Assembly (NCBI RefSeq): GCF_019634845.1
Contig: NZ_JAHCAQ010000001.1
Coordinates: forward strand, 1-64,000
Direction: 5' to 3'
DNA length: 64,000 nt
DNA from: Dokdonella sp.
Lineage (GTDB): Bacteria; Pseudomonadota; Gammaproteobacteria; Xanthomonadales; Rhodanobacteraceae
A program made the position numbers and the translations under genes. The notes under the pieces are model-generated. The model did not search any database. It had not been told where the DNA came from and saw nothing but the letters and a program-made list of their open reading frames with translations. Shown here piece after piece: positions 46,011 to 50,241 of this stretch. The number at the start of each line of letters is the position of its first letter. Position 1 is the stretch's first letter.

Positions 46011-46877
<867 letters not shown>

Positions 46878-46988
46878 CGGCTTGGCCCGCCGCGCCACGT
46901 CCGCATCGATGCGCAGCCACCTGCCGATTTGACAGCGCGTCCGCCACGAGAGTAGAACCGGACGGTCCGACCGCGAGCGGGAGGGGCC

Positions 46989-47558
46989 GTGATCTTGCAG
47001 AACCTCGTGTGGACCATTGCGCTGACTGGCATGGGCCTGGTTGCGCTGGCTTTCCTCTACGTGATCGTCAACGCCGGCAACCGCATCGACCCGGCGGCGC
47101 AGACTGCCGCGCAGCGGCGTAGCGCCGGCCTGCGCAAGGGACTGTTCTGGGCGCTGGTGGCGGTGTTCATCGCCGCCAGCTACGTCAGCCTGCATCGCTT
47201 TCCGATCCCGTTGCAGCATGCGGCGCTCGACGCTGCGCAGGTGGTCGACGTGCAGGCGCGCCAATGGTCGTGGCAGCTCAGCCAACCGGGCCAGCAACCG
47301 GGCGCGATGCTGCGCCTGACCAGTGGCTCGCCGGTCGAATTCCGCGTCACCAGCGCCGATGTCAACCACGGCTTCGCGATCTACGCGCCCAACGGCCGCA
47401 TCGCGATCCAGACCCAGGCCATGCCGGGCTTCACCAACAAGATCCTGCACACTTTCACCGAGCCGGGAACCTACCGCGTGATGTGCCTGGAGTACTGCGG
47501 GCTCGGCCATGCACCGATGGTGAGTGCGTTCGAAGTCGCCGCAGCGACGGGAGGCTGA
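46989..47558 (+). CDS. CuA-containing subunit II of a heme-copper oxidase/NO reductase
   Basis: The 189-aa product starts at GTG 46989, behind GAGGGG. Two membrane helices (about 6-28 and 51-69) are followed by a cupredoxin domain carrying the full CuA set: His127 (VNHGF), Cys166, Glu168, Cys170, His174 and Met177 in MCLEYCGLGHAPM. Electrons from a cytochrome c or cupredoxin therefore enter at CuA. The protein is short and has no cytochrome c domain, unlike caa3 oxidases; it resembles the small subunit II of B-type (ba3-like) enzymes. The next gene, subunit I, starts three bases after its stop and completes the enzyme. Confidence 0.92.
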   Translation: MILQNLVWTIALTGMGLVALAFLYVIVNAGNRIDPAAQTAAQRRSAGLRKGLFWALVAVFIAASYVSLHRFPIPLQHAALDAAQVVDVQARQWSWQLSQPGQQPGAMLRLTSGSPVEFRVTSADVNHGFAIYAPNGRIAIQTQAMPGFTNKILHTFTEPGTYRVMCLEYCGLGHAPMVSAFEVAAATGG

Positions 47559-47561
47559 GAT

Positions 47562-49047
47562 GGCTGCGTTGACGCTGTATCCGCAATCCGAGCGCCTGCC
47601 GCGCGGCGAGCGCATCACCTTCAACCTGTACATGGTCAGCGCGCTGCTGCTGTTCGTGCTGATGATGACGCTCGGCCTCATCATGCGCATGGGGCAGGGG
47701 TTGTGGCTGAACGTGCCGCCCGACCTGTTCTACCGGATCCTGTCGATGCACGGTGCCGGCATGGTCGGCACGATGTCGCTGGCGACCACCGCGGTCATGT
47801 GGTTCTTCCTGCGCAAGTACGTGACGCTGCACCTGTGGGCCTTCCTCGCCAATTACCTGCTGTTCCTGACCGGTGCGCTCATCATCATCGGCGCGATCTT
47901 CATCGGCCGCTATGCCGGGCTGTGGACGTTCCTGTATCCGCTGCCGACCCATCCGATGGGCATGTGGGAAAACAGCGCAGCCGCCTGCTTCATGGTCGGC
48001 TACCTGTTCATCGGTGTCGGCTCGCTGCTGTTCTACCTCGATGCCGCCGCCGGCATCATCGCCCGCTATGGCAACTTTGGCCGCGCGATGGGCCTGCAGT
48101 GGCTGTTCGGCGGCACCATCGATCCCGACCATCCCAAGACCGTGGTGGCGGGCACGATGGTGGTGATCGCCAACTCGCTCGGCATCCTCGCCGGCGCGGT
48201 GGTGCTGGTCATGTATCTCGTCGCGATCGCCTATCCCGGGTTCACGATGAACGCGCTGTACGCGAAGAACCTCACCTACTGGTTCGGGCACATGTACATC
48301 AACGCGGCGATCTACATGGGCGTGATCGCCGTCTACGAGCTGCTGGCGCGCTATTCGGGCCGACCCTACGCGATCTCGCGGCCATTCCTGTGGTCATGGG
48401 CGGCGAGCTGCGTGTTCGTCATCATCGTGTTCCCGCATCACCTGCTGATGGATTACGCGCAGCCGCGCTGGGTGTCGGTGACAGGCCAGGTGGTGTCCTA
48501 CCTTGCGGGCTTCCCGGTATTCCTCGTCACCGTGTGGGGCGCGCTCAACAACATCCATCGTTCGGGCATGCGCTGGACCACGCCGGCGCGGCTGATGATC
48601 CTGTCGCTGTTCGGTTGGGCGGCCGGCATCGTGCCGGCGATCCTCGACGGCACGATCGGCATCAACCGCGTCATGCACAACACGCAGTGGGTGCCGGGGC
48701 ATTTCCACTTCTACCTGCTGCTCGGCGTGCTGCCGATGGTGCTTGCGCTGCTGTATCACGTCGTCGGCAGCCGGCGCGGCGCAGCGCCCGATTCGGCTGC
48801 CGATCGCATCGGCGTGCCGGTCTATCTCGTCGGCGGCATGGTATTCGCGCTGGCCTTCCTCGATGCCGGCCACATGAGCGTGGCGCGGCGCATGTCATCG
48901 CACCTGCCGGCGTGGATCATGAATGACCGCGTCGGCGCGATCGGCGCCAGTCTCGTGCTGCTGGCGATGCTCTACTTCGCCGCGCGCATCATTGCCGGCC
49001 TGTTGCGGGCGCCCAGTGTCGAGTCTGCTGCGAACGCTGCTGCTTGA
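47562..49047 (+). CDS. Heme-copper subunit I without the helix VI tyrosine (oxidase-like or CuA-type NO reductase)
   Basis: The 495-aa product has about 12-13 transmembrane helices. All six metal-ligand histidines are visible: His64 (SMHGAGM) and His383 for the low-spin heme, His381 (WVPGHFHFYLL) for the high-spin heme, and His244 (YWFGHMYINAAIYMG), His293 and His294 (FPHHLLMDY) for CuB. In oxygen-reducing A and B enzymes a tyrosine four residues after the first CuB histidine is cross-linked to it (GHPEVY); here that place is Asn248. The cbb3-type tyrosine place six residues before the HH pair is Val. Glu260 and several polar residues follow in helix VI. This pattern fits the B-family-derived CuA-type NO reductases more than a true oxidase. 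ATG 47562 is three bases after the subunit II stop. Confidence 0.85.
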
Positions 49048-49636
49048 CCTGTTCATCGTGGCGGCGGGCGGCGCCACGCTGCACGCCGCCAGCGACGGAC
49101 TGCGGGCCTTCACCACCGAATCGGCGCGGCGGCTGGCGATCCGCGAGGCGCCGCGTGCGCTGCCGGCGCTCAGGCTGCAGGCCGACGACGGCAGCTTCAT
49201 CGACCTGCGCGACTATCGCGGGCGCTGGCTGCTCGTCGACTTCATCTACACGCGCTGCCAGAGCTACTGCAGCGTGCTGGGTGGTGATTTTGCGCAACTG
49301 CAGGATCGGCTGGCGCAGCCGTTGGCGCAGGGTCGCCTGCACCTGCTCAGCATCAGCTTCGATCCGCAGCACGACGATCCCGCACGGCTCGTCGCGTATC
49401 GGCGGCGCTTTGCCGATCGCGGCCACGGCTGGAGCGCGGCAAGGCCCGTCGATGCCGCCGAGCTGGCCACGCTGACGCAGGCATTCGGCATCAAGGTCAT
49501 CGCCGATGGCCAAGGCGGCTACGTGCACAACGCCTCGATCATGCTGGTCGATCCGCAGGGGCGCCTCGTCGACGTGTTCGACGCCGGTGCAGCCGGCGTG
49601 GTGGCAGGCGCGGTGCAGCAATGGCTGCTGCGATGA
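49016..49636 (+). CDS. SCO1-like copper chaperone of the heme-copper cluster
   Basis: The 206-aa product starts, by choice, at GTG 49016 (inside the end of subunit I), because residues 5-22 form the membrane anchor that follows. Thioredoxin-fold domain with the copper-binding FIYTRCQSYCSVLGG (CxxxC) and the later His in YVHNASIMLVD. SCO proteins load copper into CuA of subunit II, so it is the likely assembly factor of this enzyme. It overlaps subunit I by 32 bases and the following gene by four. Confidence 0.9.
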   Translation: MSSLLRTLLLDLFIVAAGGATLHAASDGLRAFTTESARRLAIREAPRALPALRLQADDGSFIDLRDYRGRWLLVDFIYTRCQSYCSVLGGDFAQLQDRLAQPLAQGRLHLLSISFDPQHDDPARLVAYRRRFADRGHGWSAARPVDAAELATLTQAFGIKVIADGQGGYVHNASIMLVDPQGRLVDVFDAGAAGVVAGAVQQWLLR

Positions 49637-50241
49637 GCCAGCAGCGTCATGCGCGTGCGCGCGCGGCGATCGCGCTGTTGACCGTGGTGCTGCTGGCGAC
49701 GCCCCCGCTGCGCCGCACGCTGGAGGCATCGATGACGCTGCAGATGCTCGTGCAGCTGCCGCTGCTGGCGCTGCTCGGCGCTTGGTTGGCGGCGGCGCTG
49801 CCGGCACGCCTGGGCACGGCGCTGGCGGCGTGGGATCGCGGCGGCTGCAGCGGGTTGCTGTTGGCCTCGGTTGCCGCGCTGCCATGGATGCTGCCGCGTG
49901 CGCTCGATGCCGCCGTGGACCTGCCATGGGTGGCACTGGTCAAGTTCGCCGGCGTGCCCCTGCTGATCGGCGCACCGTTTGCGCTGTCCTGGCCGCGCAT
50001 GGGCTTTGTGCTGCGCGGGGTGTTCTGCATGGAAGCGGTGGCGACCTGCTTCCGGCTCGGCTGGTTGTACCTCGTCGCCCCGCAGTCGCTGTGCAGCAAC
50101 TATCTCATCGACGACCAGCGGCGGCTCGGCCAGTGGCTGCTGGCGATTGGCCTGGCGCTGTGCGTGGCGTTGCTCGGCAAGCTGTTGGCCGGGCGCTTCG
50201 ACACGCGGGGCAGCGGCGCAGACCCGCCAGACCGGCCCTGA
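49633..50241 (+). CDS. Multi-helix membrane protein of the heme-copper cluster
   Basis: The 202-aa product starts at ATG 49633, overlapping the SCO1-like stop in ATGA (an ATG 12 bases upstream is possible). About five hydrophobic segments (residues 12-30, 34-55, 70-90, 100-130, 155-180) with a conserved-looking LEASMTLQMLVQLPLLALLG that resembles the first helices of CtaG-type oxidase assembly proteins; the CtaG histidines are absent. It is the last gene of the cluster, so a role in assembly or as a small subunit is inferred only from its position. rapA follows, convergent, 49 bases away. Confidence 0.75.
   Translation: MSQQRHARARAAIALLTVVLLATPPLRRTLEASMTLQMLVQLPLLALLGAWLAAALPARLGTALAAWDRGGCSGLLLASVAALPWMLPRALDAAVDLPWVALVKFAGVPLLIGAPFALSWPRMGFVLRGVFCMEAVATCFRLGWLYLVAPQSLCSNYLIDDQRRLGQWLLAIGLALCVALLGKLLAGRFDTRGSGADPPDRP

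Follow-up and report, generated by a model that had tools for sequence, protein, structure and literature searches.

A four-gene CuA-type heme-copper cluster in Dokdonella sp. belongs to sNOR, a putative nitric oxide reductase family

The first 64,000 nucleotides of contig NZ_JAHCAQ010000001.1 of Dokdonella sp. (assembly GCF_019634845.1; this whole stretch is referred to as the window) contain a compact cluster of four forward-strand genes at positions 46989–50241, encoding a CuA subunit II, a heme-copper subunit I, an SCO1-type copper chaperone and a membrane protein. The locus raises the question of what such an enzyme reduces when its subunit I has no cross-linked tyrosine. The initial annotation, made from the DNA letters, suggested either a CuA-type nitric oxide (NO) reductase (NOR) or a little-studied branch of the superfamily. 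That suggestion is supported here and can be given a name: the cluster is an operon of the sNOR type, norS-norY-senC-orf1, belonging to a putative copper-containing nitric oxide reductase family in which the reduction of NO is predicted from sequence. Because the cluster belongs to sNOR, first described in ammonia-oxidising bacteria, the missing tyrosine is the norm among aligned family members and not an oddity. sNOR is no new branch but a named family with a described operon and known members, and each diagnostic feature described below is already in print for it.

Subunit I is encoded by norY (47560–49047, forward strand), a 495-residue product when read from the ATG at 47560, although an alternative longer open reading frame (ORF) begins at GTG 47524 and overlaps subunit II. 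Numbered from the ATG, the residues are as first reported. The six metal-ligand histidines are His64, His244, His293, His294, His381 and His383 (codons beginning at 47749, 48289, 48436, 48439, 48700 and 48706), and Asn248 (codon 48301–48303) aligns to the cross-linked tyrosine in a comparison that covers oxidases of types A, B and C as well as other NORs (Tyr237 of ba3, numbering from the alignment). The valine noticed earlier at the alternative tyrosine place of cbb3 enzymes is Val287 (codon 48418–48420), six residues ahead of the His pair and opposite a Tyr in the CcoN of the same host (L002). Asn248 is present in 91 of 95 aligned rows, four of which are the window gene itself; two of the remainder are gaps and two are host paralogues with Tyr (L001) or Gln (L003). 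All 50 sNOR rows hand-picked after thinning at 85% identity (with two restored) have Asn, compared with Tyr in all 12 A- and B-type rows (five A, seven B) and Gln in the four eNOR-type rows.

These counts bear on the plainest alternative, an ordinary cytochrome c oxidase in which the Asn is a sequencing error or private mutation. Subunit I matches Pfam COX1 above the cut-off (E 6.3e-41, 141.1 bits) and its best NCBIfam model is indeed the oxidase model CtaD, but it scores just 46.8 bits where 670.75 would be required; given also the Asn in 50/50 sNOR rows and the separate clade described below, this reading is refuted, and its residual probability is negligible.

A tyrosine from another helix could replace the missing one, a point that the initial annotation had proposed to check. 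There are 25 tyrosines in the 507-codon subunit I ORF, and only Tyr58, Tyr252, Tyr259 and Tyr385 are invariant in a 57-row alignment. Tyr58 and Tyr259 were rejected as substitutes, since each of the 11 B and eNOR rows also has Tyr there; Tyr385 lies one turn from His381 and probably on the proximal heme side; and Tyr252 (codon 48313–48315) is on the same helix, eight residues from His244 and probably too distant for the usual cross-link. By alignment there is no clear candidate from another helix. Tyr252 is invariant in the sNOR rows, another residue stands there in every A, B and eNOR row of the comparison, and it is one of several residues found in 50/50 sNOR rows and 0/16 others (seven B, four eNOR and five A), which include Asn248, Tyr252, Gln310, Trp353, Asp363 and Tyr385.

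Thermus ba3 provides a structural comparison. The predicted model of subunit I has 12 membrane helices, adopted in preference to the ten segments of a hydropathy count, and a fold search with this model scores various oxidase types about equally, including ba3 (3qjq) with a template-modelling (TM) score of 0.79; with matches so similar across oxidase types, the search identifies the fold but not the function. The two enzymes share the six histidines and CuA but fall in separate clades, and they differ at some of the putative proton-path positions. Of the five ba3 positions that we take to belong to the K-path, two are retained (Tyr248 as Tyr259, Thr312 as Thr324), whereas Tyr237 is replaced by Asn248, Tyr244 by Val255 (48 of 50 sNOR rows) and Ser309 by Val320 (46 of 50). 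A K-path degraded in this way would fit the published listing of zero proton channels for sNOR (PMC8756737).

A phylogeny of subunit I had likewise been proposed as a check, and in two trees the window sequence lies outside the oxygen-reducing A and B rows. In a quick IQ-TREE analysis of 68 rows, with the host cNOR-type and cbb3 rows as outgroup and L006 left out, the 50 sNOR rows form one side of a branch with a Shimodaira–Hasegawa-like approximate likelihood ratio (SH-aLRT) of 100. A more careful run of 36 rows, with an A-type outgroup, 20 sNOR rows and the long rows L002, L004, L006 and Thermomicrobium 1 removed, gives support of 100/100 for both sNOR and eNOR and of 100/95 for B. The sNOR clade includes Nitrosomonas europaea, N. 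eutropha and the window, and separates from the rows of A-type, ba3/B-type and Gln-type (eNOR) enzymes; the Tyr-bearing B clade contains a close relative of Thermus ba3 (L104), and the window falls outside it. The window groups with Dokdonella sp. ACE_PRO70 (L018) and L014 (support 100/99), and Nitrococcus is nearer to it than Nitrosomonas in both trees. The branch joining sNOR to B plus eNOR is long (3.23), and a program warning flags long branches that meet; the placement of sNOR relative to the B-type enzymes is therefore unsettled.

The other three genes also conform to the family. The first, norS (46989–47558, forward strand), encodes the 189-residue CuA subunit II with two N-terminal membrane segments and is recognised by a Pfam COX2 match (E 6.2e-08) together with its conserved ligands; the NCBIfam CoxB model scores 86.2 bits, below its cut-off. 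The CuA site, described as intact in the initial annotation, comprises H127 (codon 47367–47369) and C166, E168, C170, H174 and M177 (within 47484–47519), and H127, C166, C170, H174 and M177 are present in 86/86 aligned rows and E168 in 85. The senC ORF (48923–49636, forward strand) matches Pfam SCO1-SenC (E 1.8e-16) and has C112, C116 and H202, as do all 87 aligned rows; since this ORF overlaps subunit I, the true start is probably downstream. The last gene, orf1 (49621–50241, forward strand), encodes a 206-residue membrane protein matching neither Pfam nor NCBIfam, with W89, P92, C158 and Q166 invariant in 87/87 aligned rows; a hydropathy count finds three segments in it, which we do not equate with its number of helices, and two in NorS. 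It is found at all 80 loci of relatives described below and is therefore as much a cluster member as the chaperone.

Asn together with a CuA subunit II is also present in bNOR (CuANOR type I, Bacillus azotoformans), and the cluster might instead be a bNOR, which is the other CuA-type NO reductase with Asn, or come from an unsampled family. This is improbable: type I is described with 13 helices and a single subunit II helix, compared with 12 (in the model) and two in the window, and the window clusters with N. europaea NorY, albeit in trees that held no named bNOR, gNOR or nNOR sequences. The source of these NOR families is reportedly Murali et al. 2024. A Geobacillus subunit I was tried as a stand-in for bNOR and set aside; a plasmid search with it gave 111 records, but the query itself has Tyr. 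The qCuANOR type II, which is found in Bacillus azotoformans and Geobacillus and is known here by description only, resembles the window in its Asn, its SenC, its helix counts (12 in subunit I and two in subunit II) and an additional protein of 4–5 helices. Among other families, eNOR, likewise a CuA-type NO reductase with kinship to the B-type oxidases, has Gln for Asn and forms a separate clade, whereas cNOR and qNOR have Glu at position 248 and a heme c subunit or fused domain in place of the Asn248 and CuA subunit II of the window. A Thermus thermophilus TF24 plasmid (L099, 3088–4773) encodes a Gln-type subunit I with Lys for the last His of the HFH motif in other rows.

Gene order was compared at 80 loci: genome contigs were scanned with a four-row alignment, and of the at least 538 relatives that emerged the best 80 were used. 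Among these are N. europaea ATCC 25978, N. eutropha, N. halophila and Nitrococcus mobilis, and many of the loci come from non-nitrifiers such as Rhodanobacter, Burkholderiales and metagenome-assembled genomes of Gemmatimonadota. The chaperone and small membrane protein remarked on initially are regular companions, all four genes being present at 78 of the 80 loci; the other two (L072 and L076) are without norS where the contig ends. The order norS-norY-sco-orf1, split by locus by hand, occurs at 68 loci, and norY is listed ahead of norS at seven, probably because its stop-to-stop frame begins upstream. An extra sco or sco-orf1 is present at two loci (L084 and L085) and orf1 precedes sco at one (L097). 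Two interrupted norY genes were seen, one split across two frames in Parasedimentitalea marina (L010, 3860–5331) and one in two pieces on two contigs of genome G014 (L016 and L017); either could reflect decay or a sequence or assembly error.

The closest known sNOR systems are those of Nitrosococcus oceani (Noc2969-2971) and N. europaea, in which the norSY-senC-orf1 operon is NE0683-86 (PMC4940428). Locus L087, taken as NE0683-86 from organism and gene order, agrees with the window in four-gene order, the six His, the Asn, the CuA ligands and the clade, with identities of 41% (norS), 49% (norY), 39% (sco) and 43% (orf1). Despite these likenesses the window is in another sub-clade, together with Nitrococcus, Rhodanobacter and Burkholderiales, at 39–49% identity per protein, and it lacks the formate/nitrite transporter gene that adjoins the Nitrosomonas loci. 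Such a gene is near sNOR at 14 of the 80 loci (e.g. L009, 6497–7315), Nitrosomonas included, although flank lengths vary. A tblastn search of plasmids returned nine records: Ruegeria pomeroyi DSS-3 (45.6% identity over 89%), Parasedimentitalea (44.5%), Thermomicrobium (34.1%) and six haloarchaeal records with 23–25% identity over about half of the query. R. pomeroyi is the former Silicibacter. The sNOR row of a published table (Table A4; PMC8756737) lists Silicibacter.

Taken together, the cluster quite probably encodes NorSY, a cytochrome c-fed, CuA-type heme-copper NO reductase of the cytoplasmic membrane. Electrons would pass from cytochrome c through CuA and a low-spin heme to the heme/CuB site, where two NO would be converted to nitrous oxide (N2O). 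Reduction of NO takes two electrons and involves no cleavage of an O–O bond, the step that the tyrosine aids in oxidases, and on this general family knowledge the tyrosine would be dispensable. SenC would supply the copper, and Orf1 may be a third subunit or an assembly factor. In the host, NorSY may remove NO generated by the cell's own nitrite reductases, probably at low oxygen, and act beside cNOR-type and eNOR-type enzymes with N2O as the likely end product. The published table gives Asn at the diagnostic position in its sNOR row (PMC8756737), and NorSY of Nitrosococcus has been treated as an NO reductase (PMC3772326). At the Ruegeria locus an Rrf2 gene adjoins the cluster; among equivalog models it matches that of the NO sensor NsrR best, although below the cut-off.

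The genomic setting offers further support. The host contains NirK, a protein in which cytochrome d1 is joined to c-type domains, and NOR paralogues of the Glu and Gln types; a NorB-type ORF beside the cluster in two of three congeners and the co-occurrence of cytochrome d1 with sNOR in the genus, both detailed below, point the same way. Six COX1 matches are present: an aa3-type enzyme (L001), CcoN (L002; 661.8 bits against a cut-off of 583.15), a Gln-type enzyme (L003), a Glu-type NorB (L004), the window sNOR and L006, a degenerate heme-copper homologue whose aligned row is without the CuB His pair. Except for CcoN they were assigned by motif, and on this basis one host has three NOR types (sNOR, cNOR-type and eNOR-type). 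For NosZ, the assembly (90% complete) yields only far-below-cut-off matches to two models, at CuA or cupredoxin domains. On another host contig (C25; L142, 6673–15083) the eNOR-type subunit I stands in a row with a cytochrome b/4Fe-4S/FlpD-like protein, L006 and a cytochrome b/2Fe-2S/FAD/NAD protein; this row, including L003 and L006, possibly forms one electron-transfer module.

Several points weigh against NO as the substrate. sNOR has only been proposed from phylogenomics, in contrast to four other NOR families that have been characterised (PMC11388526), and the portions of the cited literature available contain no activity assay of purified sNOR. In N. europaea its transcripts rise 2.7- to 10.8-fold under O2 limitation, and an O2-reducing role was preferred (PMC6967387). 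Loss of the tyrosine is compatible with O2 use, because cNOR itself reduces O2 according to titles cited in PMC8079940. An Rrf2 gene is near the cluster at just 10 of 80 loci, and the region upstream of the window cluster (46601–47100) has no match to the FNR/Dnr and NsrR patterns used. Within the genus, cytochrome d1 matches above 490 bits accompany sNOR (4/5 genomes with sNOR vs 0/11 others, p 0.0027), but the association is uncorrected for kinship, and NirK is above cut-off in 14 of 16 genomes and so does not track sNOR.

In the strongest competing explanation the NOR name is historical: sNOR would be a high-affinity O2 reductase that works despite lacking the cross-linked tyrosine, or would accept both O2 and NO. 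PMC6967387 argues for an O2 reductase, citing the transcriptional response to O2 limitation, the similarity to B-type enzymes and the absence of the NorB glutamates, and the CuA subunit and SCO chaperone imply CuB rather than FeB. Against it stand the Asn of every sNOR row, at a position that is Tyr in each of the 12 A- and B-type rows, and the aa3 and cbb3 oxidases already present in the host; PMC6967387 does not use the word tyrosine and cites indirect evidence for NO reduction by Nitrococcus. We consider this explanation unlikely, and doubt still more its specific form, in which turnover of O2 by sNOR in vivo, alone or together with NO, would need no His-Tyr cross-link and would use Asn248 and Tyr252 of helix VI as a remote proton/electron relay. 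Were that form true, sNOR would be a CuA-type oxygen reductase without the cross-linked tyrosine, contrary to the sorting rule of the superfamily.

The distribution of sNOR in the genus is patchy. A match at 1e-20 is present in five of 61 genomes (the host and 60 relatives), all five among the 16 of the genus and none among the 45 outside it; one of the five is G014, with its match in two pieces. The cluster is located between accD and rapA in the window and in three of ten congener regions fetched; five of the ten have both flanking genes but not the cluster (two with approximately 265 and 122 bases between them), and in two rapA was not found before the contig end. The cluster was therefore gained or lost at this site. 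Two of the three congeners also have, between orf1 and rapA, an ORF of 468 codons whose active site is NorB-type (Glu); it matches Pfam COX1 and no NCBIfam model, and is labelled cNOR-type because of this motif and its likeness to L004.

A literature search on sNOR with Rhodanobacter found nothing. With no claim of priority, the present case adds a host, the occurrence of three NOR types in its genome, two congeners with NorB next to the cluster, and Tyr252 as a residue specific to the family. The published question of whether sNOR reduces NO or O2 is narrowed to Asn248 and Tyr252. As the initial annotation expected, such genes usually carry oxidase names, sNOR being reported as coxA in KEGG (PMC11388526); common pipelines label sNOR genes as oxidases, and a capacity for NO reduction and N2O formation would therefore be overlooked.

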